From the NCBI GenBank assembly GCA_951230915.1, contig OX579635.1:14756001-14820000 (forward strand): a stretch of DNA of 64,000 nucleotides, given 5' to 3'. Below the pieces are notes generated by a model. That model was not told where the DNA came from. It did not search any database and saw nothing but the letters and a program-made list of their open reading frames with translations. A program made the position numbers and the translations under genes. The DNA is from Antitrichia curtipendula (lineage: Eukaryota > Streptophyta > Bryopsida > Hypnales > Leucodontaceae). This document shows, one piece after another, positions 5,469 to 44,346 of the stretch; the stretch's first letter is position 1; every line of letters starts with the position of its first letter.

Positions 5469-5756
5469 GCTTTCCACCACGAGGAGAAGGGGAGGTCATT
5501 ACCGCCGACCCTACTGTCGTGGTATTATATTGGAGGATGTGACACTATGACTTTTTTCCATGCGAACTTTTCTAAACCCAAAAATTTATGGTGGTGGGTG
5601 AAGAATACACCTTCCAAATTTTCAGTACAATCCTATAGAGGGGTGTGGGGTAATGCCTTGGCTACCAATTTCCTTGGGCACTGAGTTTGATTTCCACTAT
5701 ACCAACAATTAAAAATGTGGCTTTAAACTTTAAAGGACTGTTTTAGAAGGTTTTGG

Positions 5757-5780
5757 TACCTACAATTTAAAGTTTTACCT
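5757..5780. other. Uninterrupted target site of the large transposon
   Basis: The reverse complement of this stretch continues across the point where unit 2 is split by the 13.8-kb element. The bases left of the element (GGTAAAACTTT) and right of it (CTAGGCACCAAAAC) align here as one continuous sequence with a few substitutions. A second uninterrupted copy is at about 35140-35165. Confidence 0.8.
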
Positions 5781-6145
5781 ATAACCGGCCAAGTGCAATG
5801 CCTTATTGTCATATTGCCAATTTGCCATAGTGTCATTGTCCTTGTATACTATGCTATAAACTTTCATTTTTATATGAATCCTCATAACACGCTTGAGGAT
5901 GTAGGAAAATGCAATATAAGTAAAGATCTATCCCTTTCCAAAGCCCAAAGAAAATAGGCCAACTCATACAAACTTGCTTAGTCTAGTCCTACAAGCTTCA
6001 AGTTCTTCAAAAATCTAGCTAGTCATATAAACGTACAAAATACACTTCATCCTACCAAGCATGAACGACTACAAAAATCATCTTAGAAAAATATAAAAGT
6101 ACTCCGCTTCAAAATGTCTAATTCTCATCAAGAATTACACAAAAG

Positions 6146-17829: not shown

Positions 17830-20640
17830 AAGAAATTTTTTTCTTCAATTTGGGATTTTATTACCATTTGGCAATTAGATCCAAATACTTGATCCCACAA
17901 GTTCAAATCTCAGTCAAGAAATGCATAACTCAGGCCTGCCTTGCAGTACATGTACCAGTCGTGACTTTTGAAGGTCGGACATTGCAAGAGCATTGTACAG
18001 TTAGTAAAGCATTGCAAGTTTAAAAGTATCAACTAATAAGTATTCAACATTTAACAAAAACCATTCCTGAAGATTGAATAATTAAGACATTCTGACATGA
18101 AAATTCTTGTCCAACAGTGCAGCATTTGTTAATGCCTTTGGACATTAACAAGGTACAAGCAAGTGGAGCTCTAGCAGACAAGCGTCACGAAATCAAACAC
18201 ATTAGGCAATTTCAAACAAGTGAGCGAAAAGTCCGAAAATAAATGCTCACTTAAGTCAGTTTGGTGCTAGGAACATACCAGAGAGTAGGCGAAGGCGGGT
18301 CCTTGCACTGTCTCGGTGACCATCGCCTTTGTGGAAGAAATTGGCGTTCCTCATCTTCAGTCGTGAAATCATATTTGAGATTTTCGTCTCAAGTTCTCCA
18401 TGTTTCCGATAAGATTGTTCTGGGCACATTAATATAATTCGGTAATCATATATATCACCTTGATCAAAACTAGCTAGCTGACATATCACTGGGAGAACGG
18501 GAGGGCGTTACCCCCAGTATTATATTGCGGGGTGTAACTTGACCCCCCCCCAAACTTTATTAAACGCCCCGCCGGTTTCCCTCTCGAAATAAATTAGGCG
18601 GTTGGCTTGGTATCTATCTCCTTCGCAACTGCAAGAGTGAACCCAAACCAAGCGTCACCATCTGTCTTAGACCAATATGTTCACATCATGAACGCATTTT
18701 GAAATGACATAAGTGAAGCTCTGAAAGTGCCGATACAAACAAACAAACAATCGAAGTGCAAGACTGCAGGCAAATCCAGGCAATTGAAATATGAAAATCA
18801 ATCTTGAAAATAAGTCCTCGAACAGGGAGACATATATCAACACTGAGGAAGGAACTCACCCGTAATGCATGAACCCGGCTGTCCTTAGCTTGAATTATCC
18901 AAACTTTGCACAAAGGACTCACATTGATATCGCGAGGGGATGATCGCCAAGACGGGAGTGCCACATGCAATGAAGCTCTGCAAGTGCTTTATTCGGACGA
19001 AGACATACTGCAAAATCAGAGAGTCAATCAACATGAAATGAAATGAAGTAAGGTTCTGCTGAAACAAGGAGACACAAATCCAACTGGAAGAGTGATCGAC
19101 GAAAGAACTCACTCTCTGGACACAACCTTGTCCACAACCCACAATGAACCCACATGCATGATCGATCTATTTCCAAGTCGTCACATACATGAAAGCTCGT
19201 GTTCTATTCGGAGTGTCCACGAACTGCAAAATCAAGAAACCTAACATAAAATCAAGCTGCTGAAACGTACAGCTAGCCACGGCGACCCACACTGCGTACA
19301 GCAACAGTGACATTTGGCATGCAGAACTTACTAGCTCGATCACTCACAACCTTGTCTAACTTCACCGGTGAAACCACACCCCTCCCGACATGCACATGCA
19401 CCACTCCCAGCGACCAGGATTCTTCTCTCCGACCAAAACCACACGAATCACACGATTATAGTTCCATGCAAAAATTACAAAACAACACTGTCCGGTCGTT
19501 CTCGTTGGTAAGTGTAGTGAGCCCTCTTCCTCGCAACTACAATCGTCATAATAACACGCAGACAGACAAAGAGAGAGAGAGCGGGATCGATGAGCACCTG
19601 TGATCAACGGCACCTGGAACTCCCTCCGACCTGCCTTGCCTTGAGAGATAGCTCAAGTTGAAGTGAGCCTCAGAACACTCAGGACGTGTGCAGCTAGCTA
19701 GGCTGGAGTTCTCGATCGATCACAAGCTAGTCGGCACAGAAGCTCCTGCAGCACAGAGCAAGCTAGCAGGGACTTAAGCAAGAACTTAAGCAAGAATGAA
19801 TTGGATCGCACTGCTACACTGCTGCTGTTTATACTAGCCAGCCAGGGGAGAACCCTAGCGCACCGGCCATCTAGATCGATCATCCCCTTGCGTCGCCAGT
19901 CCCAGCGCTGAGTGCGCAAGGGGAAATGGGCGTCCCTGTCGCCGTCGACTGAAAGATCTGTGTGGCGTAAAAGCAACGCAAATTACGTGTAAAGGAGAGA
20001 CTGGTACCGATGCGCAAGGGAGGGGCGTCACATTCAAGTCCGTGATCACCTTCATTTCGAATTGGACAGGTCTTTAGAATTGGTCCACAATTGCAGGCAT
20101 GATCAATGACTTACAACGCAAGGCAAAGCATGATGATCCAGGCATCGCTTCCAAACTGCAGGGCCCATGCCGCTTGTCAGCTGTCGCGTGTCGCTGATCG
20201 TCCTGTAATTGGATGTGATGCCGTCCTGCATGTCTATTCAACTATTTGGGCACATATCCACTAACTAGTTAGAACACTAACTTCAATGTGGAAGGAAAGC
20301 AAAGTTTCAGCAAGCTTTTTCAGCATTCATTTTGCCAAGTTTTGAAACATGCATGCTTTAGTACTGTTTTTTTGCAAACATTAAATTTTTGGAACATACT
20401 CCAAAAATTTGGAACAAATTTGCAACATTTTTCATCAAACAAGTTAATGTTCCAAATAATGCTCACTTTGAACTGAGTTTAGTAGGAAGTGAATGTTGAA
20501 TGTCAATTTTTATTGTCACACTTTAGTGTGAATATTGACTTCGAAGGGTGTCATTTGACCATACAACATACTTTCCATTGGGAGTGCTAACCTCTTTTAG
20601 TATGGCACATTGTTGTAGATCGAGAAGCACAACTTTGTCC
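17830..20640 (-). repeat. Long inverted-repeat arm C
   Basis: This is a direct copy of arm A and the inverted partner of arm D across a core of about 15 kb. It carries a truncated version of the hairpin insertion near 18506-18562 and a TATA-like box on the minus strand at 19828-19833. The inner end matches arm D through the TTGTAGATCGAGAAGCAC region near 20610-20640. Confidence 0.75.
19828..19833 (-). promoter_or_regulatory. TATA-like box in arm C
   Basis: TTTATA on + reads TATAAA on the minus strand, in the conserved arm block. Confidence 0.35.
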
Positions 20641-21104: not shown

Positions 21105-21134
21105 GGGTCATTGCACGAAACACTTGTACTATTT
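21105..21134 (+). repeat. Left terminal inverted repeat of large transposon
   Basis: These 30 bases are the exact reverse complement of 34833-34862. They end in TGTACTATTT, which resembles the AGTACTATT motif scattered inside the element. Confidence 0.9.
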
Positions 21135-21964
21135 TCCGTCACATGTTGCAAGTGAAAGTGATTTTGTGCCATAAGTTTTTGAAAAATGAACCAATGAATA
21201 CAAAATTCAAGGCGAAGGTTGTACTGGGATTTTCAACATGCTCAAATTTTTTCAAATTTTTTCAAATTAGTTTAGCATTTAATACTGATTTTTTTAAATT
21301 TGTCACACTTTCCATTTTTGGGGTTTTTAGTACTATTGAGAGCCCAAAATAGGGAATTTTGACTAGAGCTTTGGTGAACCTCTTCCTATAAGCAACATAC
21401 ACCTTCTGCCGAGAGGGATTCAAAAATTCTTGCTTCCATTATCTTCTGGTTTGCCCTAAAGTGTGCTTCAATGAGCATGCATTTCTGGAGAGTAGAATTT
21501 CATAATTCATAATTTTCTTGAAGATTACCTTTCTCCACTAAGTTCTCCAAAATGGCCATTTTTTACCTTATTTTTTTAAGCCTTTTTTGTAATTTAAAAA
21601 AATATAAATGTCAATAGCCTATTTTCCAGGGGAAATTGAAGTCTCTACCAAAAAATAGTACTGTAAGGTTCCCCGTGGTACTCAATAGTACTGGTGGGGG
21701 CCCACTTTGGATGATAGTCTCTGACGTGGATGGCAGTTGGCGTGAATTTCTTAGTCACTGCTACCTGGATTGCATCCTGATCGAAACAGCTATCGCATTC
21801 CGTCGCGAAGGAAGTTGTGTCTGATCACCTGTTAGGGTTTCTCAATGAAAACTCGTGAATTCTAGGCTGCCATCATGCAGGTGCTTGCTCATATGCGGAT
21901 CTTAGTGTTTTCAATGTATTAGTCCTACGTGTTTCGATGTTTTCGATGCAGACGTATTCCAGGA

Positions 21965-24900
21965 ATGGATGCGCGAAGGGTGCAAAGCCGGTCAGGTCCA
22001 AGAAGTCGGAGTGATGCGGCGGCTGCTACCAGGGAAGACCAGAGGCGGCAATGGAGAGAACGCCAACGTCGCTGTCGCGCTTGAGGAGCTGAATCAGATC
22101 TAGTATTGGAAGAAGGAAACAACCATGGAGGCGCAGATGCGGCACTGCGATGGGGATGCGCCAGGCATTGAAGTACTGTGTGGAGAAGTGCCCAAAGAAT
22201 AGCAGCGGAACTGATTCGGAAGTTAGTACGTCTTCAAAATCCTGCTGTACGAGATGCTGTTTTGGAGCAAGTCTTCAGAAACTAGAGCGTGCGACCTTTG
22301 CTTCCTCATTACTACCCATGTTCTGAGGAAGCAAGAGCGCAGTGTGAAATTTTGAGAAACATTCGGGGAGACTTGGCGGCTCTGAAGATACCTCATTCGT
22401 CAAGAATGTTGGCTAGGAAGCGGGGCATCCTAGAAGCGGTTGTATCAGAGTTGGACTCGGACATCAGCAACTTCCACAGAATTTTGGGTATACGTAAGGA
22501 AAACCTATTGGCTGCAGTAGAGCGCTTGAGATCAGCTGCAATGTCGTCAACCAACAGATACCAAATTCCAGCACGTAAGAAACGGGAGGGTGGCCTTTTG
22601 GAGGAATTAAAAGCAGCTGTGATTCAATGGTGGACTCAAGAAACACGAGTCAGCCCAGGTCGAAAGGACATACGACGGAAATGACGGGGACGTTGTGTAT
22701 ACGATACCCATAGCGCTCAACTTCTGCTCGAAACTCAGGTGTGCAAGTGGACAATTTGCTGCATTACATGCATTCATGACTATTTTTTCCATTTGTGTTT
22801 CTGTGACATGTCCAATGTTGTTGCCTTCTGCATTTTAGTGTGTACCTTCTTCCCGCACGGAGCTTGTGCGAATCGGTACAGTGTACGTTGTTATAGCCTG
22901 TAGTAGCCTGGTGATGATGCAGGAGTGCAGCATGTCCTATAGACTTAGCAAACATGTGCACTGGCGGTTCTCAAGTATGAATTAACCATGTTCTTCCTTA
23001 CTTCTACGGTACCATGACTTTGTGCATACAGAAGCATTCCTTCCAAGATGGTCGATTACTTACCACTCCTTCGGTACTGCCCTCTAAAAACCTCTCCACT
23101 CCCATGCTTTCCCTAAGTGTGCTGTGAGGACAAACATCCGTCCCTTTCCTTCCGCTCTCTGTACTACTAAACACATATGCATCACTCAAAGGGTGCATCA
23201 TACCCATTGCTGTTAGTGATGCAGTACTATGGATGATGTGTCCAGTATGCAGAGTATACTACTAACTCCTGCGTCATTGACTTCTGCATCTTTCTCGTCC
23301 TATGGAACTTCCTGAAAATACTACTGCAGCGTCTTCTTTTGGTCCCAGAGTACTATGCGGTACTTTGTATGTCTTCGGAGTATTAGAATGCCATCTTCGT
23401 AGTAAGCAAGTACTGTCCACCTACGTAGCTCTGTGTAGCGTCTTACATCTAGTGCTCATAATACAAGTACATAACTGGTTAGTGTTCTTGTGGTACTATT
23501 CGATACTATTTGGTACTACTCGGTACCATTAATTCAATACCATTAATTCAGTACCAGTCAATACCATTCAGTACCATTTATTCAGTACTATTCATTAATT
23601 ACTACTACCATTCGGTACTATTCAGTGCTATTTGTGATACTGCTTCTACAAATTTTCCACTCAACCTCTCCTGATGTCCACGTCATCGCTTACATACTTG
23701 GAGCATGTAATGTTTTTCTCTTCTTCTTCATATGCTTCATGTGTTAACAGTGGTACCTGTTGAAGAGTCTATGCAAATGCAGCTGTATTACCGATTCATT
23801 GAGGCACATACCCTTTGGTCCATTCAACATCATGCTTTCTTCAAACTCCGTCTTTTCTTTGTGATTAAATGCAAGGACCGTAACGTATGATGTTGCAGGT
23901 ACCACATTCAAGTTCTCTATCTCCTAGAGGCTTTGAATGCCTTCCGTGACCCTCAACAAGGTGCCCATGTCCGTTTCCACTGTACTTGTGAGTGCATAGT
24001 TTGTGGTGTGGACAATGGAAGAGTGTACAATGTAGACAGCAGTCGATTTGCTGGAGTTACTGCATTGTGGGAGTCCCTCCTGTGCCCAAAAGGTGAAGAT
24101 GAAGAATTCCACAATGCAAAATGCCTCTTCGGAGCTTGCAACAGATGTGGTTCGAAATTCTTCTATGTCTGTCCCCGAGAAAGGATAGAAGATGCTACTC
24201 AGAGTATTCAGTGGAAGCAGTTCCAATATGAAATTGTGGGCACCTCAGCAAACGATCAGCCTAAGAAGCGCATCAAAGAGGTTCAGTTGACTACTTCCTT
24301 CTCGGAGTTCCTAGATTTCTTCTACCCTACACTGCAGCATTTCATTTGGCACAATTTCATAGCAAAGTGGCAAAGTGAGCAAGCCAGGCTTCTGCAAGCA
24401 TGCCTACAGCGAGGGAGCATTTTAACACACATTGATTTCTCGGAGAATTACACATTTGTACCTCAAAATGAAATCCAGTCCATGTACTACTACTCTGACC
24501 AAGTCTCTATCTTGGTGCAAGTGACCTATTCTGCAGATGCTGGTGACGATGCTCTTGAAAGAAGCATGCAATTGACAAGACAGACACTCTACTATATATC
24601 AAATGATAAGAATCATGACACATTTTTTGCGCAGCATTGCCTCATGCTGCACTGGCGATGGATGGAATCTATGGGAATGTCTCCAGACACTCACTACGTC
24701 TATAGCGACGGATGCGCTGGACAGTTTAAGAGCGCTAAAGCAATGTACTTTGTTGCCAGGTGAGTTCATTTCTTATGTTCCATTCCCTTTTTTATTCCCT
24801 CCAACACTACTATTGAATACTATGCATTCCTAGTGAAGCGCACTCAGTGTTACTCTATACTATTGAGTACTATTCCGCATTACTGAGCCCTAGACTCTCT

Positions 24901-26121
24901 CTAAGGCCTTTCAAGTTCAATTGAGCATATGTTTGTATGCGGTTTACATAGAAGATTGCCTGAGTACTTCTCTGTCATATGAGGCAGAGTTGGGACCCTC
25001 CTGAAATTTGTGCTCCTCCACTTGTTGCAGATATCCGTCTTTGACGGGGGGGGGTGCAAGATGATGTGGAACTACTATGGTACGGGGCATGGGAAAGGAG
25101 AATGGGATGGAGCTGGAGTTGTCGTCAAAAGGGCCCTTCGGCAAGAGCAGCTGGTGAATCCGCATAGACGCCTCCAAAATGCAGCGGACTGTGTGGTTTT
25201 CTTGGACGCTACGATGGCTAGTCAAGTACCTACACGTCATGGTGAAATGAGGTATTACCTTCCGTGACTTCCCACAATGATCGGCACCCTGGTGGCTTGT
25301 ATTCCTCCTCTAAATGGAATTGGAGGTACTCCGTGTGGTTTTCATGCTGGTTGGTCAAGAGTCCACCATTCTTGTTCATCTATTTATATTTCTCCACTTT
25401 CTTCAGGTCTTTCAGGTATTTCCACCACATTGGAGTGCACAAAGTTGAACGCAGAGGTCGTGAGGCATATGATCCCATTGTAGGCTCCTCAAAATTGCAC
25501 TCCATTTTCGCACCCGATGCTAGTGACCCAACAAAGTTGTTTGTACGTCACTTGTCATGCTTCTGTGGCCCATGCTTGGAGGAAGACTTCATGCAATGCG
25601 AAAAGCAAAACTATGTGAAGCCATAGACTGCATTGAAGATACAACCACGGAATGCTGCATACGCTGCAGAGCACATGACTGCGACTGAGGGTGACGGAAG
25701 TTGGGACTATGAGATTGACGAAGATTCCATGGCAGATTTAGTTCAAGCTGGAGACAACTTTGCAGTCCCTGCAGCACCAGACAATGATGAAGTTGTCTCA
25801 TTTTACATTTTGCAGTGCCAACTTCCAAAGCACACATTGTAGGGGGACGTTGATTGCATTTGGGGAGAGCACTTTCAAGCAGGGGACTCTGTAATCTGTG
25901 GTACATACTACCAGAAATGGGGACGGCGTGACCACCACAACTATGTCTACTTGCGGAAATCCAGGCCAGCATATGTAGACTCCAGTATAGTACTCGCTTG
26001 CAAATTTCAAATGATATCCCAACAACATAGAGTGAAGGGTGGAGATGTTGTGTACAGCCTTCCAGATGAGACAGTTGATGTTATCAACACAGCATTGGAG
26101 GAAATGGATGCTACAATGTGA
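21965..26121 (+). pseudogene. Transposase-like gene, DFSENY/SDG/HGKG family, degenerate
   Basis: Four exons fit one reading: 21965-22738, 23783-24759, 25031-25251 and 25407-26121, about 895 codons. Order: basic N terminus, a helical DNA-binding-like region ending WWTQETRVSPGRKD (near codon 230), the YHIQVLYLLEAL segment, then motifs DFSENY (Asp at 24434), SDGCAGQFK (Asp at 24707) and GHGKGEWDGAG (Asp at 25106). A Cys-rich LSCFCGPCL segment and a C-terminal YVYL/VVYSL region follow. The three Asp motifs probably form the catalytic triad of an RNase H-like transposase; similar motif sets occur in uncharacterised animal and plant proteins. Lesions are in-frame stops at 22082, 22169, 22283, 22682, 23888, 25624 and 25840, and a one-base shift in the G run at 25046-25054. 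Conserved residues continue across every lesion. Confidence 0.8.
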
Positions 26122-26330
26122 AAACCACGGCTACTATTCCCAGCTTTTTTTCCTTCTCTAGAAATACCTTCTCAGACAGGGTTCGTACAGGACTAAAACT
26201 GCAGAGCACATGCTCACCTACACAATGGAATGCCCCCAAAAATGCTTCTGTGTCTCTTCGCAACTACCAGAATGCCAATCCCACACTACCGTCATCAGTA
26301 CCTCTTAGTCCTGAGAAGTATGCACTCAGT

Positions 26331-26560
26331 ACTATTCCACTGCCAATGCAGTACTATTTCTCTACATTTGCAATACTATTCCACTGCCAATGCAGTACTA
26401 TTTCTCTACATTTGCAATACTATTCCACTGCCAATGCAGTACTATTTCTCTACATTTGCAATACTATTCCACTGCCAATGCAGTACTATTTCTCTACATT
26501 TGCAATACTATTCCACTGCCAATGCAGTACTATTCCTTTGCCAATATAGTACTATTCGGA
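26331..26560. repeat. 44-bp tandem repeat array
   Basis: Units start ACTATTCCACTGCCAATGCA at 26331, 26375, 26419, 26463 and 26507, giving four full copies and a degraded fifth. Each unit contains AGTACTATT and the related AATACTATT. It sits between the convergent transposase and SET gene ends. Long frames here are products of the repeat. Confidence 0.9.
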
Positions 26561-27212
26561 TGTGCTTAGTACTTAAGAAATAGGCGCAGAGTACTATTCC
26601 ATTGCCACGTTAATACTATTTGGATTCCCTCAGTACTATAGAAGCTGCACTCAGTACTTCCTAAACCGCTATAATACTTCTTGGATGTGCTCAGCACTTG
26701 AAAAGTTGCGCACATTTCCATTTTGATTATTTCCCTTACATGTCACTCTCCCTTCAGAATCAGAGTCTTGTGGACAATATTTTGCTGCTCATTTCGTAAT
26801 AGTATTCTTTATTGGATTTGAACAAAGCACTGTTGACACAATTGACAGTGCTATTAATCAGAGCCGCTTCTGATGAAGGTCTTGTGCATAGTGGGAGTTC
26901 AATTTCTCAATCCTGGTGCTCACGGGTCTTAAGTTCTTGCCATGTTGACATTTCAATATACAACTACAGCGCCCAAAAGTCTACAAATAAATTACAAACT
27001 TATACATTGGACTATGGGAGTGATGATTGTCTTCGTTGCTCGCATACTCTACTCTGGTTGTCTACACAGTACACTACCACAAGTGCAGCGGAAAGATACT
27101 TGCATGCCGTCTTCCTCAGCAAAAGAGCAGCCATAGTCCCACGTGAGCTCCTCCCCCTGTTCTACATTGCGCACTGTAAAAAATGCCACCTGCTACATGA
27201 ACCACATGTTTA

Positions 27213-28613
27213 TTAATTAGAATCATGCCACGGGAAAAGTCGATTAATGGAAACAACACTCAGCATAGAAGGCAATGCAAGTGCAATGGTGGTACGTGCA
27301 TGGTAAAGTGTTGGAATCGTGTTCTCTATCCAGACTGGGATATCCATTAAGTTCGCATCCCCACACCTGCACCGACAGATGGCACCAAGGATTTCTGTGT
27401 ACATTAAGGTCCAAGCACAACTTCGTCAATGGAAGAGGGACACAACTATGATGAGATAACATACACCGTATACAGTGACTGCCTCGTACCTGTGATTCAA
27501 GTACCGAGCAATGTTACATTATACAGAGGCATCGATAGAAAGCAATGAGTCATCTCCGTGCGCCACTTCAGATTGCCAATGCGCATCAAGTGCCAACGAG
27601 TACTTCAGAAATGATCCACGGCGCAGCAACTCCGCATGGGTCACTATATCTCCTCCATACTCAAATACAAAAGAACCGCAATTGAGTTTGTCTATGGTCC
27701 TGATTCTCCAGCCCTTGGAATCGTCTACATGAAAGACTTGCACACTTCCGGAGTCAGTATTAATTTGTAGAATGATACGGTAGAAAACCTAACAGCTGAT
27801 TCAATGTTTTCCCGTTCGAGGTGGTATTGGAGGCCGAGAACAAACCATGCCTTTCGAGAAAAACTCCAATGACGACAACATTCTAAGGAGGAGCAATGCT
27901 AACCTCAAATTGCTTTTGTATGCCATTTTGGACCATTCTATTAATGCACGGTGGGATGCAAGCACACACACGGAAACACTCCTTCACGTACAACCGCTGC
28001 ACATGCTCGCCGCAACGTCCATTGTTGGATTCTGGACAAGAGTTGTTCCCTCCACAACGAATGAGTCCTCCATTACCAAAACTTCGAGTACGCTTAAACT
28101 GCAGCACCATAGAGGCAGCCATTACTTACATCAAAGCCTATGCTGAATGTGTACAAGTGCTGCAGCTGCATCGTTATTGCCAAACATAGCGCATAAGGGC
28201 AGCAAAGACAAAGGACAGACAGAGCTGAATCGATTATAGAGGCAGCTCTGAAAATGTACCTCCGTGATGTAGCGGGGGTGGATGACACCGTCTGCCAAGT
28301 ATGCGCCACTTGCAGCCACTGAAACGCTGATGAAGTCTCCAAGACGGTGACCGGATTCGCCATCACCAATGCATGATGACAGCGTACGAACAGCACGTGA
28401 AGCACCTAGAACTAGGACACTCACGGACTCATGCAAAATAGGACTGCATGTATACGTGTAGGACTTCTCTAGTACTTTGAAACCATGTGATGTCACTGCC
28501 TCAGAAAGGAGGATGGGAACATTTTCCATGCCTTTCGACAAGTCACAATGACAAAGTTGTCGTGCACCCTGTTCATGGCAACAAATCAGAGGACGCACAA
28601 AAAAGTGTACCAC
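27213..28613 (-). pseudogene. SUVR-like histone H3K9 methyltransferase (pre-SET/SET), damaged
   Basis: Reading on minus, exon a (about 28598-28260) has CDLSKGMENVPI, like the start of the SUVR pre-SET region. Exon b (28098-27904) has ECFRVCACIPPCINR followed by MVQNG, the end of a pre-SET domain. Exon c (about 27743-27490) gives VQVFHVDDSKGW, the FVFEYGGDI motif, LALDAHWQSE and the IARYLNHR motif. Exon d (from 27366) gives CGDANLMDIPVWIEN. These match plant SUVR1/2/4-type enzymes, which methylate histone H3 lysine 9. Damage: TAA at 27519-27521 just before CNIARYLNHR, missing cysteines in exon a, and no recognisable EELTWDYG end. The acceptor of exon c is unresolved. The gene lies inside the large transposon. 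It could be the C-terminal part of the RING-like gene upstream. Confidence 0.7.
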
Positions 28614-29258
28614 AAACTATATTGCAAAATGCACAGGGTACAAATATATTTACTTTCATGGTATGCTCTGCACTAGGCATGCGCAGCATGCTTTCGCTTT
28701 CCGTGGACTACCCCATTTCCTTTCGTGAGGTAGGGCCCAAGAACTACCAAATAAGGGCCCAAATGCTTGGGCCCTATGGCCCGGTTCAGACCCTACATTG
28801 CTCACAACCACCCAAGGCAATCCTCCACCGGCATCACTGGCCAGCCACCACTTCACAGGCGACGAGCTCCACCTCATCACAATTTTCTTTTACCCACCTC
28901 GTGGTCATTGCTTGCCCTTGGAAGATTTCTTGATTTCTCTGCCGCTGCTAAGCCAGCTGCCTGCAACCGGGGCCGCAAAATCCTTCTAGTCTTTGCTGTA
29001 GAATTTCTTATCGTTGATGGACCATGACTTGCAATATTTGCTGTCCCTACATGTCATGGCACGGTGTCACAGTGAGAAATCCATTTGATCAACTAGCAGC
29101 ACATAAGCTTCTCACCAACTCCTCTACTGTTAAGAAAAAAATCTACAGCAAAAGAGTACTTTTGTACTTGCTATAGTCCTAAGGAGTACTAGAGGGAACC
29201 AGAGAAAGTGAAGGAAATTCCTAAGGGACCGGTCTCATGGACTTAGTGGCGAACGCAC

Positions 29259-29373
29259 CTGAGGAGGAATTCACAATGCCTTTCACTGGGCTCCCTATAG
29301 CGACGTTCACAGTTGCCTTTGTAGCATCGGCTCTTGGGGGGCCAATTGTTATATCCCAAGGATCTTCAATGAC
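29259..29373 (-). other. Possible exon between RING-like and SET segments
   Basis: On minus, an acceptor CACTATAG precedes 29373 and a donor CAG|GTGCG follows 29259. Between them is an open frame reading VIEDPWDITIGPPRADATKA and onward. It lies in the same direction as both neighbours and could link them or serve as an N-terminal exon of the SET gene. The phases to its neighbours do not fit simply. Confidence 0.3.
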
Positions 29374-29562
29374 CTATAGTGAACTTCCATGCAACACAGA
29401 CGTTCTAAAATGGTTCAATTTGGGCAGAAAAAAGAGAAAGCAGGCCTCACATGAATATGCATTAGTTAGCAGCAAAGCTTTCAGCACAACTCCTATAGAA
29501 TGCATGTTCCCCTACATTGTAGATACGACCACAAAGACTACAGGAATTCCAAAATTGTGTAC

Positions 29563-32500
29563 CTCATTTGGAGAACCGCTTGGTGGCGGTACATCTTGGA
29601 CGGTGTTGGAATGTCAGCTTCTGTTCCAGCCTCTCTCCCCTGCACATCCGGAAGCGTCATCGCCAGGCTACTATCATCGTCAAAAAAGTCAAGCGCCTCC
29701 ATTTCCGCTGCAGTCACTTGTGTCACGTCTGCATTTGGTTGGTAGTCCTCAAGTCCGGCCTGCAAATCCCATGAGTCCGTTGCCACGGTCTGCATCGAGT
29801 CAGACAAGTGTGACGCCACTGACTTCCAGGTAGACTTTGGGCACTGCAACGATATTGTTGAGGCCAGTTGCGGTGGAGAACCGGTACAACTGCGCTTCAA
29901 AACTGCAGACTTTGTGGAACATTTGGAGGCAAAAGGATTTGAAGAGGTATCTCCCTCCAGAATGTGAGAACTAGGACTGATGTCAAGAAGGCTGTCTTCA
30001 CCGACTGCTGCAGCAACCGTGGGATAGTAGCCCCCTTCTGCTATACAATTTGTGAACGTGCTGTCAGAGGCTGACAGACTTGGCGCACCCGTTTCAACGG
30101 AGAAGAGACCTGCACAATGGGATGGCAGTCCGGGAAGTGAGATGAAGAAAGCTTGTGACATGAAGAAAACTTGTGACATGAAAAACGTCTCTCTTCCTCT
30201 GGGATGCTGCCCTCAGCCACATTTGCTTCTACATGACATGCATAGAACTTCCCTCAGTACACCAAGGGTGGCAGAGACAAAAGCATGCCATAAATCCAGA
30301 ACTTTACTACACCTACAGGACTGCATTGCAATATAATTGCAGTCATGTGCTGCTGAAGATACCTACAATACTACCATTGCTGAATACATAGTAATACTAG
30401 TCAGTGGAAAGAAGAACTTGGCCAAGTGAAGAGACTAGCATATGGATATTGTACACAGCATGAGGTTGAGCTCAGCACGCACTACGGTTGCAAGAGTGCA
30501 TGTAACTAGAACGACAAGCACAAGAGACAGTCGAAGTGCTGCCATAGTCACATACCGATGAGAGGGGCGTCCTTGCTTGGCGGAACCGGTGGGCCTGAAG
30601 CGTGGCCCGTTCCTGTGACAATGTCTTCTGCTTTATCTTCACTTGCTGGAAGCCCCTCCGTAGCAGGTGAGATGCCCCAACTTGCTAACCACAAGGGATG
30701 CACAAGACCACAATCACTTCCTGCACAAGTGGAAGTCGACTGAAACCACTGCGCACCACACCATGGATGATACACGTGGTGGCAGCTGCAGAGCATGAAA
30801 TCCCCATATGGAAAAGATTCCTTGCATACAGCGCAACGGAGACTGTCCATAGTGATGATGGCTAAGGAAACAAGACTGCTAGCGAGCACGTCATTGCGCT
30901 GCGGCTGCGGTTGCAGAATCACCCCTTCCCCACCATGACGCAGGTCTTCAAGGTAGTTGTTGAGGGATTTGAGGCGAGATTGGAAAAGCACCACCTTTGC
31001 GGTCACTTCCTCCAAATCGCTCCTGAGCTGCTCTTTGGCCTCCCCAAATTCGCCAAGTTTCTTGAGGTGGCCATCCAGTACTCGCTGCAGCACTTCCGAC
31101 CCACCTTCGTCCCCCATCTCAGTCATAGTCTCCTGTAGTTGGTGAATTCCAAGGAGTCTTGTCCGATGTTGCTTGTCTACTTCCTCAGCCTTCTTTCGTA
31201 GCTCGTGAGCACTATCTTGCATGTGTTTCATCTCTGCAGTAACAAAGTCTATCAACAGCTGGGCAGTCTTCTTCCTACAACGCAATAGAGCCCAAAACAC
31301 AGGTTTAACGTTTTTAGTACTAAAAGTAATAAGTAGTATTGGGACATAGTACTGTAAGTACAAAATAATGCTACGACATAGTACTCTAAGTATAAAATAA
31401 AACTAAAACATAGTACTCGAAGTACTAAATAATACTAAGACATAGTACTCTAAGTACAAAATAATACTGGGACATAGTACTCGAAACACTAAACAATACT
31501 GAGAGATAGTACTATGCACAAAATAATACATAGGCATAGTACTCGAAGCACTAAACAATACTAAAAAATAGTACTAGAAGTACTAAATAGTATTGGAACA
31601 TGGTAATATCGTACGACAAAGCAGAGTTTCTTCACTAGATGTTGGAACTCAGACTACGACTACTAATTACTTAGTGAAAACATGCAGATCTGGAGAACAA
31701 CCGAGGGGCAAACATAGAGGACACCGGTGAATATGAAGGGCATCCAAAGTATTTCTGTATGAAGAGGGAATGCAAGGCAAGTGAAAGGAACAGCTGTAGT
31801 AGAGAAAATGGACTGACCTCTCAGCCACTGCTGCGGTGCTTACAGTTGAATGAAGTCCTATCGCCATAATGCCTTCTTTCTTGTCGATATTCTCAGTCCC
31901 ACCCTGCATACGACGGAACAATTGCACCATCGGCTCATTCGGCTGCTTTTCGTCTTTCACATCCAAATATTTGGAAAAGCCCTCTTCCTCGGCCACCTCA
32001 GCTAGTGGTTTCTGAACCGCATCAGCTAGCCTTGTCAGCCACTGCTTTGCCCACCTACCATAAGCTCGTCGTTGGCCCAAGTTTGTCTCCGCTGCAAAGC
32101 TAGCCCAGTTGATTTTCTCCCCTTTCGCTTGAAGAGTCCAACCCATGGCTAGCTCCTTGCCCACATGAGTACTATTATATGGCTTCTGGAAGCATTGGCA
32201 GTAGAGGGATTCCACTTCTTTTCTTAAGGCTGGAATGAGCTTCCCTACAAGTAGGACGCCATTGCGTCCTTTCTCCGGACCAAAGAAGTTTTGCACATCT
32301 GATGACGAGACATCTTTGTCCATGCGTAGTCTGTGTGGGTTGAGGCCATCACGGCCCAACTTGCAGACCGTGGCAAATATGTCCTCCAACATAGCAGTTG
32401 GAGGTCGCTTTGCCGGATCATGTAGCAATTGAAGTTGCCGGCGGCACTCAGTCTTCGTGTATACTTTGGGAGAAGATGAACTTTTCTTCCGCTTTGATGG

Positions 32501-32917
32501 AGTGGTGACGCCTGGCTATTTGGCACTATCAGCATCGGAGACATCCTGGGTGTGGGCTGAGCAATCTTCATTGCTAGCATGAGAAGTGGACATCACTCGC
32601 TTCTGCTTCTTTCGAGAAGTGGGCCCCATCTTCCTTGTGGCCGGGCTGATGGGTAGAGGTGGCTGCGAGGCAGCAGTCCTACCCGCTTTCTTGTTCTTCT
32701 TGCTACCACCTGCCGCAATAGCAAGGGGAACCTCTAGTCCCTCCTTCTCAGAACCGCTGGGCAAATCCGAATGCTTTGCCCGCCGCTTGCCTTTCTTCTC
32801 ATATGTAACGGCCGCGTTTTGCAGTAGACTGTCATCATCGTCATCGCTTAAATCCACCGCTCGCCCAGCTACTGCCCTTGCACGGTTCTCCGCAGGTGTA
32901 TTCTTCATCCTTGCCAT
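29563..32917 (-). pseudogene. Coiled-coil and RING/PHD-like zinc protein of the transposon, one internal stop
   Basis: On minus, exon 1 runs from ATG at 32917 to 31818, exon 2 from 31274 to 30556 and exon 3 from 30109 to about 29563. Joins 1-2 and 2-3 keep phase exactly. The N terminus is acidic, then basic with Lys-rich nuclear-type clusters (KKGKRRAK, SRKKQKR). Exon 2 has a heptad-like coiled coil of about 130 residues, then CAVC, LCSCHHVYHPWCGAQWF and CAGSDCG, a RING or PHD-like zinc module. Exon 3 is low-complexity and acidic. The only lesion seen in exons 1-2 is TAG at 32516-32518, where Gln would fit. It may be a chromatin or ubiquitin-ligase type cofactor. It faces the SET segment in the same direction and may be one gene with it. 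Confidence 0.6.
31310..31610. repeat. Cluster of AGTACT/AATACTA motifs
   Basis: This intron of the RING-like gene is packed with irregular repeats of the form CATAGTACTCKAAGTACTAA, spaced about 35-50 bases apart. Similar motifs recur at 23500-23640, 24780-24890, 26280-26690, 33225-33260 and 34760-34850, and also end the terminal repeats. They may be binding sites for the element's own protein. Confidence 0.55.
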
Positions 32918-32929
32918 GAAAAAAGCAGA

Positions 32930-34832
32930 AGGACCTGGGCATTGGGAAAATGAAAGGTTAGTTACTTGGGGACCAACACTGTTGCTGTAGTACTATGAGT
33001 ACCCAACCTTACTATCCAGGAACTCAGAGTACAGCAAAGTGTCCTACAGCAATAGGGAAGGACTGCAAGACCAGTATAAGTGGTTTACCAACAACGTATA
33101 ACGGACGTCGGCCACCATAATACTTGACAAAACAAAGCAGCAGAAGACAACGAACCAGACACGGAATTAAAAGACTGCAGAGAGTTGAAAGAGAACGTAC
33201 CAGCATAAACAAGGTCGCCGTCGTTAGGGAGTACTAAGGAGTACTAAGGAGTACAGTAGCACCGCACAAGAATACTACTCCACAAGAAGAAACGAGGTCC
33301 TAGGACGGTCGACAGCAATCTGTGTCAGTGAAGGACACAAATAGTACTATCGAGTACGCACACAGTACAACATGGATACATTGAATAGAAAGAGTACATC
33401 ATGAACAAATATTACGTATCCTGAGTGCACACTTCCTACTCTATGTATGGAAGGAGTATAGGAATCAAGCATAAAGTATAGGCCGAACACCTAGTAGTGC
33501 AAACGCTAGACGACGGAAGTACTATGAGCATATTTATCCTATATTTGGCATACTAGATGGTGCAATTCAAGAATTTCAGTGACGACGTAGTACAGCAACG
33601 GTAGCCTGAAGGAACACCCATGTACTGAAGACCAAAAACTAGTATACAAGGACACTGAACGTAGAGGGAGACGTAGAAGAAACGCTGTAGTATACAATCA
33701 ACACTGAAGAACCCCAGCGGTTTCAATTTCAGTCGTTGTAGAGGTCCACAACGCACTACGTAAGGCGGAAGGGATGTACCGACGAGTTGTAACTATTCAG
33801 GAAGACCACTAATGTAATCCCAAATATTTGGACTGCACCAAGGACAACAACATAGGATGCACATCCTATGAACAAAGTGTTCTTGACGATTTTATAGGGC
33901 AGCAATTGGCAAAGACGGAGGCATGCTCTAATCGCTAGGGGAGAGCACTATCCAAACATGATGGAAGCAGAAACTAAAATTAGCATACAGTGGAGCACAT
34001 AACCGTCGGCAAAATAAACTACAACGCTAAAACCCTAGTTCAGCACCACGCGCGCCAGCAATTGGTGTACAAGTACGCTGCAGCCACCAATTGGTGCTGT
34101 TCAACGTGCAGAAAAATAAGAAGAGGATGAGGGAGTACAAGGCTAGGGACTCACCTGACGAAGCGGAGGAGGGGTTTGTTGGCGCAAAACCTGCAGAGCT
34201 TCCGCCGGCAGTTGACGTCGAAGTAGTCCTCCACCCGCCACCAGCAAACCCTCGCCGCCTTCTTCCTGCAGAAGCCGCTGTTGTTCTCACCAAAGCAGCA
34301 GTCAATCGTAATCGCCGACCTTCCTATTGCTGCACTCACCGAACGTCCTCTCCCAACTAACAAAGCACATAAGACGCCATTTTCCCGATACCAACCAATA
34401 GCAACATAAATTGTCCACCTTCAGCAACATACGCAATCTCTCACAGTTCTCCCACATCACTGTCGAATCCTTCCTCCAACTGGATTGACCAAGCATACCG
34501 ACCAGCATCTGCAACGTTCGGCGGAAGCTCACAAAATCCGATGAGATTGCGCCGCCGCCATACCCACGACCGGATGAGAGAGACAAGGTACGGGCGGATG
34601 AAGAACATCATTTACAATTCATCCACATACATCCGTCCATCCAAGCCCCCTCCCCTCGGATGAACAGACCTCACCATCCGTCCCTATCATCCAATCACGG
34701 ACGTACACGTGGTAGCGGCGCAGAAGATCATCAGAAAGATTAACGGCCCAGATTTTTTCTTCTACACCGCTATAGTACTCACAATACTAATAGTACCTAT
34801 AGTACTGACTGACCAAAAAGGCAAAACGCAAC
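32930..34832. other. Right subterminal region of the transposon
   Basis: This lies upstream of the minus-strand RING-like gene. It contains scattered AGTACT motifs (for example GGAGTACTAAGGAGTACTAA near 33230). Minus-strand frames at about 34586-34302 and 34363-34027 show no family, so this is probably the promoter and 5' leader. Confidence 0.4.
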
Positions 34833-34862
34833 AAATAGTACAAGTGTTTCGTGCAATGACCC
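34833..34862 (-). repeat. Right terminal inverted repeat of large transposon
   Basis: These are the exact reverse complement of 21105-21134 and are followed directly by the AGTT duplication. Confidence 0.9.
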
Positions 34863-35549: not shown

Positions 35550-38195
35550 TACAACCTAAATAGTTGTGCTTCTTGATCTGCAACAATGTGCCACACAAGA
35601 AAAGGTTAGCACTCCCTATGGAAAGTATGTTGTATGGTCAAATGACACCCTTCGAAGTCAATATTCACACTAAAGTGTGACAATAAAAGTTGACATTCAA
35701 CATTCACTTCCTACTAAACTCAGTTCAAAGTGAGCATTATTTGGAACATTAACTTGTTTGATGAAAAATGTTGCAAATTTGTTCCAAATTTTTGGAGTAT
35801 GTTCCAAAAATTTAATGTTTGCAAAAAAACAGTACTAAAGCATGCATGTTTCAAAACTTGGCAAAATGAATGCTGAAAAAGCTTGCTGAAACTTTGCTTT
35901 CCTTCCACATTGAAGTTAGTGTTCTAACTAGTTAGTGGATATGTGCCCAAATAGTTGAATAGACATGCAGGACGGCATCACATCCAATTACAGGACGATC
36001 AGCGACACGCGACAGCTGACAAGCGGCATGGGCCCTGCAGTTTGGAAGCGATGCCTGGATCATCATGCTTTGCCTTGCGTTGTAAGTCATTGATCATGCC
36101 TGCAATTGTGGACCAATTCTAAAGACCTGTCCAATTCGAAATGAAGGTGATCACGGACTTGAATGTGACGCCCCTCCCTTGCGCATCGGTACCAGTCTCT
36201 CCTTTACACGTAATTTGCGTTGCTTTTACGCCACACAGATCTTTCAGTCGACGGCGACAGGGACGCCCATTTCCCCTTGCGCACTCAGCGCTGGGACTGG
36301 CGACGCAAGGGGATGATCGATCTAGATGGCCGGTGCGCTAGGGTTCTCCCCTGGCTGGCTAGTATAAACAGCAGCAGTGTAGCAGTGCGATCCAATTCAT
36401 TCTTGCTTAAGTTCTTGCTTAAGTCCCTGCTAGCTTGCTCTGTGCTGCAGGAGCTTCTGTGCCGACTAGCTTGTGATCGATCGAGAACTCCAGCCTAGCT
36501 AGCTGCACACGTCCTGAGTGTTCTGAGGCTCACTTCAACTTGAGCTATCTCTCAAGGCAAGGCAGGTCGGAGGGAGTTCCAGGTGCCGTTGATCACAGGT
36601 GCTCATCGATCCCGCTCTCTCTCTCTTTGTCTGTCTGCGTGTTATTATGACGATTGTAGTTGCGAGGAAGAGGGCTCACTACACTTACCAACGAGAACGA
36701 CCGGACAGTGTTGTTTTGTAATTTTTGCATGGAACTATAATCGTGTGATTCGTGTGGTTTTGGTCGGAGAGAAGAATCCTGGTCGCTGGGAGTGGTGCAT
36801 GTGCATGTCGGGAGGGGTGTGGTTTCACCGGTGAAGTTAGACAAGGTTGTGAGTGATCGAGCTAGTAAGTTCTGCATGCCAAATGTCACTGTTGCTGTAC
36901 GCAGTGTGGGTCGCCGTGGCTAGCTGTACGCTTCAGCAGCTTGATTTTATGTTAGGTTTCTTGACTTTGCAGTTCGTGGACACTCCGAATAGAACACGAG
37001 CTTTCATGTATGTGACGACTTGGAAATAGATCGATCATGCATGTGGGTTCATTGTGGGTTGTGGACAAGGTTGTGTCCAGAGAGTGAGTTCTTTCGTCGA
37101 TCACTCTTCCAGTTGGATTTGTGTCTCCTTGTTTCAGCAGAACCTTACTTCATTTCATTTCATGTTGATTGACTCTCTGATTTTGCAGTATGTCGTCGTC
37201 CGAATAAAGCACTTGCAGAGCTTCATTGCATGTGGCACTCCCGTCTTGGCGATCATCCCCTCGCGATATCAATGTGAGTCCTTTGTGCAAAGTTTGGATA
37301 ATTCAAGCTAAGGACAGCCGGGTTCATGCATTACGGGTGAGTTCCTTCCTCAGTGTTGATGTATGTCTCCCTGTTCGGGGACTTATTTTCAAGATTGATT
37401 TTCATATTTCGATTTCCTGGATTTGCCTGCACTCTTGCACTTCGATTGTTTGTTTGTTTGTGTCAGCACTTTCAGAGATTCACTTATGTTATTTCGAAAT
37501 GCGTTCATGATGGATGGGCACATATTGGTCTAAGACAGATGGGCACATATTGGTCTAAGACAGATGGTGACGCTTGGTTTGGGTTCACTCTTGCAGCTGC
37601 GAAGGAGATAGAAACGAAGCCAGGCGCTTAATTTATGACAGCTAGCTAGCTAGTTTTGATCACGATGATATGATCACCGAAAGTCTACATATGCCCAGAA
37701 CAATCGTATCGAGAACATGGAGACGAATATGTGGCATATGGTTTCGCTACTCAAATGATGGCCACGGAGATAGTGCATGGACCCTTTGCCTATCTCAGGT
37801 ATGTTTGCAAGCACATAGATGTGAGCATTTTTTTTACTTGTTTCTTTGAACTTGCTTAATGTGTTTGATTTCGTGACGCTTGTCTGCTGCACCTCTACTT
37901 GCTTGTACCGTTTGTGACCAATGGTGTTAACAATGGCATCCCTGTTGGACAGGAATTTTCGCCTGAGAATGTCCTATATTAACTTCAGGAGTTTGTGTTT
38001 TGTGAAACGTTGAAAACTTTTTAGTTTACATTTCTAATCTTGCAATGCTTGACTGCACAATGCTCTTGCAATGTTCGCTACCTATATCATTATCAAAAGT
38101 AACAACTGGTACACGTACTCCAAGACAAGCCAGAGTAATGCATTTCCTCACTGAGAGATCCGAACTTGTGGGAGATATCTTTAAGCTGGCTTATT
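35550..38195 (+). repeat. Long inverted-repeat arm D
   Basis: This is the inverted partner of arm C and a direct copy of arm B. It contains a TATA-like box at 36363 and splice-like signals in the + direction. It has a small internal duplication at about 37515-37565 (GGGCACATATTGGTCTAAGA twice). From 37546 it is identical to unit 1. Confidence 0.75.
36363..36368 (+). promoter_or_regulatory. TATA-like box in arm D
   Basis: TATAAA is followed by CAGCAGCAGTGTAGCAGTG and is conserved with the other arms. Confidence 0.35.
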
Positions 38196-42583: not shown

Positions 42584-44346
42584 TCAGCCGCCTCCACCAC
42601 TGTAAGCCTTGCCGAAGAAGATGAGCTGAAGTTGGTCGTAGCCCGACAGCACGCCCGCCCCCGCCACGGCCCGCAGGATGTTGGCGCCGGCTCCTTTGAA
42701 CAGCGACGTGTGCCCTTCCTTGGCCACGATCTGCTGGAAGGCATCGAAGCTGGACTTGTACTTCACTGCCGATCCCGAAGTCATCATCATGCGCCGCCTC
42801 ACGGTGTCCAGCGGGTAAGAGACCAACCCCGCCCCGATGGTGATGCTCCACCCCAACATGAAGCTCGCCAAGAAGTTGCCCTGCACGATCACACGCACAA
42901 ACATAAATTCCATTCACTCATGCCAGTCACCTGAAGATCAGAACGTCTTCCAAACATACACATTCGATCTCTCACAAACCAAGTCAAATCCAGACTGCAA
43001 GCCAGATGTCTAGCCGCGAAACGGCGCGCTTGATAGGTAGCTTGCAATTCATCAATCGAGCGCTACACCAGCAAATACCTAATTATGTGCATGAGGTGCT
43101 GAATCTGGAGCCTAATTCCATGTGCTAAGAAGTGGCCACGGACGCACCTCCAGGTCCCCGACCAAGAGGACCGGCTTCAACGAGTCGTACATGCCGAAGT
43201 AGAGACCGCGGTACACCACAATGCCTACGCACGAGATGACGAAGCCTCGGTACAGTCCCGCGATGCCATCCGAGGCGATCGTCTTCTTGTACACGTCGAA
43301 CAGCCCGTCGAACTGCCGTTCGCCGCCGCCCTTCTTCGTCGACTTGGCATCGTTCGCCAAGCGGGTCCGCGCGTAATCCAACGAGTACACGAAGAACAAC
43401 GACGACGCTCCCGCCGCCCCGCCCGACGCCAAGTTGCCCGCGAACCACCACCAGTACCCGTCCTTGTCCTTCTGCATGCCGAACATCTTCTTGAAGTGGT
43501 CCTTGAACGCGAAGTTCAGAGCCTGCACACCACCAACACCATTAGATGCAGCGACAATGAAAGTTCGCAGGAGAGGGATCGAGGGACACATGAGAACAGC
43601 ACGATTGGTTGCGTTCAGGAGCAGTTAGTGCTGCATCGGCTTTGTTAGAAGATGAATTGTTAACGTGAATCACCAGAATGGACCTCGACATGTCATATTT
43701 CACAACCAATTGTTCCGACTGAAGTCGGATTGTGTCCCAGATGGTTAAGCTGATCGAGTCGGGATCATGGACTCGGGGCAATGAAGGAGTGAATATTCAC
43801 CTGCGTGGGGAAGTAACGGATGACATTGGCCAGGTTCCCTCGCCACAGCGAAATCACGCCCTCGTCGGCCACAGTGCGCCGGAAGCATTCCGCCACGCCT
43901 TTGTACGGCTCCGTCAGCCGGCCCTGCTTGATCATCTCGTCCTGGTTCTGGACGAGGAGCTTGATGCGCTCGATGGGCGCAGCCGCCGTCTTGGACACGG
44001 CCGCGGACACGCCTCCCAGCATGAAATCCATGAGGAAGTTCTTCTCTTGCACGGCATGGGCCACCACAGCGGACGATGTGGGCCGGGCTATGGCGGCAAC
44101 GGAGCTGCTCATTGTGGGTTCGCCGCAGAGAAACCGAGCTGGGCACTTCAAGACTCCCGAGCAGGCCACCTCGCGAGCCTGAATGGCAGTGGGGGGCTGC
44201 AACATGAACGGAGTTGCTGCCGTATTGGTGCCTGCCAAGGCTGACGGCGTCATTCTTGAAGATGGTGAAAGCAAACTGGAGAGATACGATGATCCCACAA
44301 GAGAGTGAAGCCTTGCAGCCCTGTTGTTCAGCCTCTCGGTTCCCAT
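42584..44346 (-). CDS. AAC: Mitochondrial ADP/ATP carrier
   Basis: The protein exchanges cytosolic ADP for matrix ATP across the inner mitochondrial membrane. Three exons on minus (44346-43801, 43522-43148, 42880-42584) give about 405 residues. Carrier signatures are present in all three repeats: PIERIK, SLDYART and PLDTVRRR. The diagnostic ADP/ATP carrier hexapeptide RRRMMM lies near residue 335. The first 105 or so residues are a Ser/Ala-rich, plant-type presequence before [20 protein letters not shown]. The ATG at 44346 was chosen because it precedes the presequence. The frame is open upstream, and an acceptor-like site near 44405 hints at an intron in the 5' leader. Introns interrupt after FPTQ and after GDLE. 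No damage is seen. Confidence 0.93.

Follow-up and report, generated by a model that had tools for sequence, protein, structure and literature searches.

The SET gene of the DNA transposon in this 64,000-nt stretch of the Antitrichia curtipendula genome (the window) is a standing component, kept under selection, of a varied family of large DDE-type transposons, and on balance it would encode a putative SUVR-type H3K9 methyltransferase that acts in trans on the chromatin of the elements. This reading builds on direct observation of the element borders, the repeated carriage of the gene, the gene order around it, purifying selection, and the catalytic motifs. A sequence-only reading of the window had proposed that the SET gene is carried inside a transposon, and the gene indeed lies within exact terminal inverted repeats (TIRs) flanked by a target-site duplication (TSD) (Table 1).

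Table 1. Coordinates of the transposon and of its coding features in the window
Feature	Position	Strand	Remarks
DNA transposon	21105..34862	.	13,758 bp; 4-bp TSD AGTT on both sides
Left terminal inverted repeat	21105..21134	+	30 bp, exact; starts GGGTCATTGCACGAAAC
N-terminal transposase exon or ORF	22286..22684	+	Motif RVSPGRKDIRR; resembles a stretch found in families A, B, F169, F237, F251
Transposase exon with two putative catalytic acids	23771..24763	+	DFSENY, SDGCAGQFK; in-frame TGA at 23888-23890
Transposase exon with third putative catalytic acid	25032..25253	+	GHGKGEWDGAG; ends approximate
C-terminal transposase exon	25407..26121	+	Broken by two in-frame TAG
SET exon 5	27040..27189	-	ELTWDYG, post-SET CTCGSVLCR, stop
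SET exon 4	27300..27366	-	CGDANLMDIPVW; GC donor common to 5/5 copies compared
SET exon 3	27490..27737	-	FVFEYGGDI ... NHR; in-frame TAA at 27519-27521; preceding acceptor AA, not AG
SET exon 2	27904..28098	-	Contains ECFRVCACIPPCINR
SET exon 1, as modelled	28260..28616	-	GMENVP..., degenerate pre-SET; 5' end provisional
ORF between RING and SET	29538..30209	-	Resembles by eye the same-place ORF of subfamily C3_15k; no Pfam match
RING-finger gene	30548..31402	-	Pfam zf-RING_2, E 5e-5, 23.8 bits, under the curated cut-off of 27.3
Conserved cassette gene G2	31667..32515	-	Kept in the cassette
Right terminal inverted repeat	34833..34862	-	30 bp, exact

A related site without the element is present in reverse orientation at 5647-6136 of the window, with flanks approximately 80% identical. 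The 1.95-kb inverted repeat at 18684-20634 and 35562-37512 (99% identity) was rejected as the element border, as it is part of a palindrome that is itself duplicated and that received the element as an insertion. The palindrome-duplicated segment occupies 1-11.6 kb, 14.4-20.6 kb, and 35.5-41 kb of the window; the second palindrome holds the transposon midway, and another copy of both arms, separated by a short middle, lies at about 3.3-8.6 kb. AGTACT words are concentrated in the element (46 of the window total of 58), as is AGTACTAT, all 19 window occurrences of which lie inside it; these words are arranged as short tandem arrays around 26.3-26.6 kb and 31.3-31.6 kb that are perhaps candidate binding sites of the transposase. 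Outside the element, a mitochondrial carrier gene is encoded on the minus strand at 42584-44490 (Pfam Mito_carr; ADP/ATP carrier-like by eye), and Rfam and tRNA scans of the window gave 0 matches.

The cassette order G2-RING-SET on one strand, with the transposase on the opposite strand, tail to tail, is common to six subfamilies, including that of the window. Besides the window element, the same order facing the transposase was observed in eight of nine stretches of sufficient length (A, B, F169, F237, F251, C3_15k); the F251b stretch displays SET and transposase only, with no G2 or RING seen. Among stretches of 10 kb, C3_34.6 and C5_29.9 contain G2, RING, and SET, C3_2.3 contains SET along with a RING piece on the opposite strand, C8_16 a weak SET only, and C1_31.7 nothing. 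The ORF between RING and SET in the window is probably an additional exon of one of these two genes. On the right, elements of A, B, F169, F237, and F251 close in ...ACCC, as does the window element. Families A and B (L009-L014) additionally harbor a second, diverged G2-RING pair upstream of the first within the same element. The genome-wide RING search employed the family A protein as its sole query, and the matches listed omit the window's own RING.

The transposase of the window copy is broken by one TGA and two TAG codons in frame, the first of which occupies the codon of a cysteine in the relatives P0003 and P0006. It presents the D, D, and E of an RNase H-like core, all three acids being putative. 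Neither a Pfam transposase family nor the KDZ (Kyakuja-Dileera-Zisupton) domain was matched in Pfam by any of 30 transposase relatives. A search of PDB sequences with the transposase profile gave a single match (E 0.32), Foldseek on its own provided no useful lead, and two scans of viral contigs with the transposase yielded no confirmed match in either. A transposase relative is present in Klebsormidium, which, like the SUVR relatives, the genome's own SUVH genes, and the CG/CHG footprint described below, points to a green-plant host. In a transposase tree from a short search, with SH-aLRT support only, P0021 falls in a separate clade of nine unnamed proteins (SH-aLRT 95).

HarbingerS and PIF-Harbinger elements are characterized by a 3-bp TSD and a Harbinger transposase, while Helitrons and Helentrons encode a Rep-helicase and have neither TIR nor TSD. 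The former were ruled out by the 4-bp TSD, found in all three copies read at both ends (AGTT, TAAA, and ACAT), together with the lack of a Pfam transposase match in the 30 relatives; the latter were ruled out by the TIR and TSD and by the absence of Rep or helicase from the ORFs scanned. The TSD length fits Sola2, for which a passage in PMC3627910 describes an AT-rich TSD of 4 bp, the comparison being one of descriptions and not of Sola2 sequence.

All four motifs quoted in the sequence-only reading, which gave no strand, are real and occur once each in the window, on the minus strand: ECFRVCACIPPCINR at 27937-27981, FVFEYGGDI at 27645-27671, IARYLNHR at 27489-27512, and DANLMDIPVW at 27330-27359. 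Five exons, from 28616 to about 27040, were spliced by hand into a single reading frame, which includes the cofactor and catalytic motifs of SET and ends with a post-SET of the form CxCx4C followed by a stop. Thus, the range of 27213 to 28613 first assigned to the gene holds as to its place; however, the gene extends slightly past 27213, to about 27040. The window protein matches Pfam SET (E=4.5e-12, 46.8 bits), and the best PDB matches by sequence are SUV39H2 and EHMT1 (E 1e-25 to 1e-23). The first protein search returned two matches, namely a protein of Apium and Linum SUVR4, the latter with 44% identity across 56% of the query. Judged by these sequence matches, the likeness is not due to chance.

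The TAA in exon 3 is private to the window copy among five copies, with tyrosine at that codon in all four sisters, and the acceptor AG of this exon is kept in three of the four. The GC donor of intron 4 was rejected as damage because it is common to all copies compared. In-frame stops are frequent in the window subfamily, since four of five SET genes contain one, those of the three other sisters lying away from the position of the window TAA. Only C3_42.9 (C3:42.96 Mb) has no in-frame stop; however, it has lost two cysteines that the others keep. The window copy of the transposon is probably dead. The earlier suggestion of a captured, decaying host gene is correct in that both SET and transposase of the window are decaying, but not as a single capture, given that six subfamilies carry SET.

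Regarding the enzyme type, a profile of six SETs (the window, four other element SETs, and Linum SUVR4) gave 268 matches, of which the best 120 are plant SUVR-type proteins or unnamed proteins with the same domains. When five element SETs are aligned with Linum SUVR4, 61 columns do not vary, GW, NH, C, and LTWDYG among them; the element SETs display the SUVR core, i.e., SET with NHxC and LTWDYG and the post-SET cysteines, of which one is missing in C3_42.9 and C3_15k. In a tree of 22 rows, the element SETs group with 12 angiosperm SUVRs against two SUVHs of the host genome with support of 100/100, and identity as a SUVH (KYP type) was rejected on this placement. The tree, with long branches and the two SUVHs as outgroup, is built without SUVR3, SUVR5, and the host's own SUVRs, so that the placement proposed in the sequence-only reading, in a tree with host SUVR genes, was obtained in its angiosperm part, whereas the SUVR-type identity it had assigned is upheld by the Linum match, the profile, and the tree alike. 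The element SETs are split in the best tree, which implies two changes, while a single change is found in 30% of bootstrap trees, so that one origin and several origins are both compatible with the tree.

The pre-SET region differs between subfamilies. The F237 SET matches Pfam Pre-SET with 55 bits and SET with 67 bits, while no Pfam Pre-SET match was obtained for the window protein or C3_42.9. The pre-SET cysteines are mostly kept, by eye, in F251, and are lost in the window subfamily and, again by eye, in C3_15k; the branch of the latter two may therefore have changed its activity. SUVR1/2/4 proteins carry an N-terminal, ubiquitin-binding WIYLD domain, and SUVH proteins of the KYP type carry an SRA domain. 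Scans of six upstream ORFs from five elements, including that of the window, detected neither WIYLD nor SRA, nor any further Pfam domain with a convincing match, with exons not based on transcripts. Compared with plant SUVR1/2/4, the element genes share the SET core, NH[KR]C, LTWDYG, the post-SET, and, in F237, the pre-SET; unlike them, they are multicopy within transposons and no WIYLD was found. From the encoded residues, the element SET is predicted to be a lysine methyltransferase of the SUVR1/2/4 type, and several copies retain an intact catalytic core.

The genome searched is that of the window (400 Mb, 303 contigs). Searching for exact matches to 17 bases from the window-subfamily TIR identified 69 ends, which resolve into eight long copies (13.6-48.5 kb), 18 short derivatives, and 17 unpaired ends. 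The presence of SET in other copies, a check proposed at the outset, was confirmed for all eight long copies with both exact ends, which hold transposase and SET, and for 17 of the 19 long TIR-bounded copies of subfamily A. The latter (TIR GGGTGAAAGCACACTACGG) is represented by 78 ends, which also include two copies of 611 bp; two long copies that were read measure 20.2 and 21.8 kb and have the TSDs TAAA and ACAT. The 18 short derivatives (0.89-1.10 kb), which bear the TIRs of the window element, were presumably mobilized in trans.

Across 134 transposase sites, entered from 135 matches after the copy at C8:4.95 Mb, matched in two fragments, had been reduced to its first, the nearest listed SET lies within 30 kb and tail to tail at 84 as a lower bound, and in another arrangement at 3; no SET was found within 30 kb at 47, which is an upper bound because the SET list double-counts some loci and misses others. 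That list comprises 129 rows (any SET domain, not only the SUVR type) and 38 more chosen among the matches listed, the genome search scoring only part of its candidates. Random placement, which ignores repeat clustering, gave a mean of 0.84 tail-to-tail sites and a maximum of 5 in 200 runs. Twelve further SET places were checked, and none lies within 30 kb of the 47 sites. By table reading, about 41 of these 47 belong to a class of 38-42% identity, five resemble family A, and the remaining one is assigned to a 60% class. At least one of the five A-like sites, C1:50830151, sits in a TIR pair that does hold SET, and C2:43279504 may be another. At one site of the 41-site class (L057), 5.5 kb read past the transposase exon contained no SET, and the C-terminus of its transposase resembles P0021 by eye. 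With about 41 of the sites lacking a detected SET in one class, SET carriage is usual in several lineages, not universal, and this type of transposase can do without it.

Purifying selection, which the sequence-only reading had named as a check on the gene, acts on SET between subfamilies, with dN/dS of 0.20-0.30. By the NG86 method, dN/dS of the SET core is 0.304 for A vs F169a, 0.280 for B vs F169b, 0.291 for A vs C3_34.6, and 0.302 for B vs C3_2.3, and that of SET is 0.204 for F237a vs L046. The comparison of the window subfamily with C3_15k (pN about 0.30, pS about 0.80) is saturated and was set aside; likewise, RING of B vs C3_2.3 is saturated and was excluded, and L047, which has no overlap, was left out of the F237 alignment. 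For comparison, RING gives 0.25-0.28 in three A/F169-type pairs and the transposase 0.11 in two. Between close copies, SET dN/dS is 0.19 (A, B), 0.52 (F169a, b), 0.28-0.83 (window subfamily), and 0.634 (F237 cluster), a spread that is as expected of partly dying copies. In a codon model of 16 rows (the F237 cluster and L046), omega is 0.327 (lnL -2389.7), as against lnL -2424.2 with omega 1 on the same tree and kappa held at 3.7. Of 14 further copies from the F237 cluster, 9 are without an in-frame stop, one of the nine having a one-base gap. The SET dS of A/B vs F169 is about 0.5, i.e., approximately half the RING and transposase dS of the same pairs (0.85-0.93), for which module exchange between subfamilies is a possible explanation.

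The copies also bear a substitution footprint. In five SET stretches of the window subfamily, 144 positions depart from the majority, and 112 of these changes are C>T or G>A, distributed over CG (36), CHG (42), and CHH (34) contexts with 134, 145, and 493 available sites, respectively, such that 78 of the 112 lie at CG or CHG. In 15 copies of F237, 110 of 127 differences are of this kind (CG 38, CHG 28, and CHH 44, vs 34, 53, and 261 sites). As a sequence signature, this is what DNA methylated at CG and CHG would be expected to show.

In the mechanism that we propose, the SET protein would be produced from the element and, like SUVR4, methylate H3K9; it would act in trans on the chromatin of the element family, altering the silencing of the family by the host. 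The neighboring RING protein may provide a ubiquitin signal that is answered by SUVR4-type enzymes, and the proximity of the two suggests a ubiquitin-stimulated writer moving element chromatin out of the me1/me2 loop of the host, although this part is weakened by the lack of a detected WIYLD domain in the scanned upstream ORFs. Passages of a review (PMC7218100) describe SUVR4 as converting H3K9me1 to higher states and binding ubiquitin via WIYLD, disagree as to whether me2 or me3 results from ubiquitin with SUVR4, report no in vitro activity for SUVR1 and SUVR2, and place most H3K9me3 of Arabidopsis in euchromatin. Counter-silencing, by pushing me1/me2 to me3, is accordingly put forward here as a tentative version of the mechanism, which we slightly favor over self-limitation of the element. 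In its widest and rather doubtful form, the proposal is that an undescribed transposon superfamily (GGGT...ACCC ends, a 4-bp TSD, and an RNase H-type transposase without a Pfam family) might use a portable RING and SUVR module against the host, driving the H3K9 methylation of its copies beyond the me1/me2 that is read by the silencing loop, and so escaping or resetting silencing.

Self-limitation, in which the element imposes H3K9 methylation on its own copies and thereby limits damage, is less likely than not, although it falls only slightly short of counter-silencing in probability; the methylated-DNA footprint is in line with it, yet ordinary host silencing would leave the same footprint. 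Two further readings, on a par with each other, are less likely still. The enzyme might act on host chromatin, repressing host silencing genes in trans instead of marking the element, and the long, charged ORFs that lie upstream of the element SETs, in which no Pfam domain was found, would leave room for this. Alternatively, it might methylate a non-histone partner, i.e., the transposase or the RING protein, and tune transposition directly: SET, RING, and transposase travel together, and the degenerate pre-SET of two subfamilies could admit a new substrate, whereas F237 keeps Pfam Pre-SET, F251 keeps most of its cysteines by eye, and the residue before DYG in the element SETs is W, as in plant SUVR. 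The reading that one host SUVR gene was captured recently and is now decaying accounts for the TAA and the lost acceptor of the window copy, but is refuted to near certainty by recurrent carriage, in the same place and orientation in six subfamilies, together with purifying selection, and is further opposed by the privacy of the TAA and by the finding of no near-identical SUVR outside the repeat classes among the matches listed, the host's own SUVR1/2/4 not being among the genes identified.

In plants, H3K9 methylation has transposons among its main targets, and a selected, transposon-borne writer of the SUVR type is thus a natural experiment on the control of this mark. Since SET-plus and apparently SET-less transposase classes coexist in one genome, in many copies and with a RING partner, whether the enzyme helps or restrains the element is directly testable, with the class of about 41 SET-less sites as a natural comparison group. 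Annotators should also be aware that a SET gene accompanies the transposase at 84 or more sites of this genome.

Mobile elements encoding chromatin or DNA-mark enzymes have been described in other lineages. HarbingerS and MuDR DNA transposons of Phytophthora carry a SET histone methyltransferase gene (Kojima and Jurka 2014, Repbase Reports, as cited in PMC12730594) and are thus alike in combining a DNA transposon with a lysine methyltransferase gene of the SET type; they differ in their oomycete host and their Harbinger or MuDR transposases, whereas the present elements have a green-lineage host, a SUVR1/2/4-type SET, a transposase with no Pfam match, a 4-bp TSD, and RING and G2. A proto-Helentron of Phytophthora infestans has a Clr4-like SET ORF (PMC4067079), and is likewise a mobile element whose SET ORF resembles an H3K9 enzyme, but it is a rolling-circle element, in contrast to the TIR element with a conserved SET-transposase cassette described here. 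Fungal DNA transposons of several lineages carry TET/JBP dioxygenases (PMC12730594), enzymes of a chromatin or DNA mark that act on 5mC and not, as here, on histones. Retrotransposons of dinoflagellates and charophytes carry cytosine methyltransferases (PMC5890265); they too encode a writer of a silencing mark, although they pair a retrotransposon with DNA methylation and not a DNA transposon with histone methylation. In the open literature, subscription papers, preprints, and Repbase aside, no report was found that describes a green-lineage DNA transposon bearing a SUVR gene. Hence, while transposon-borne SET genes are known from oomycetes, what is new here is the green-lineage host, the SUVR type of the enzyme, a transposase without a Pfam family, and the RING partner.
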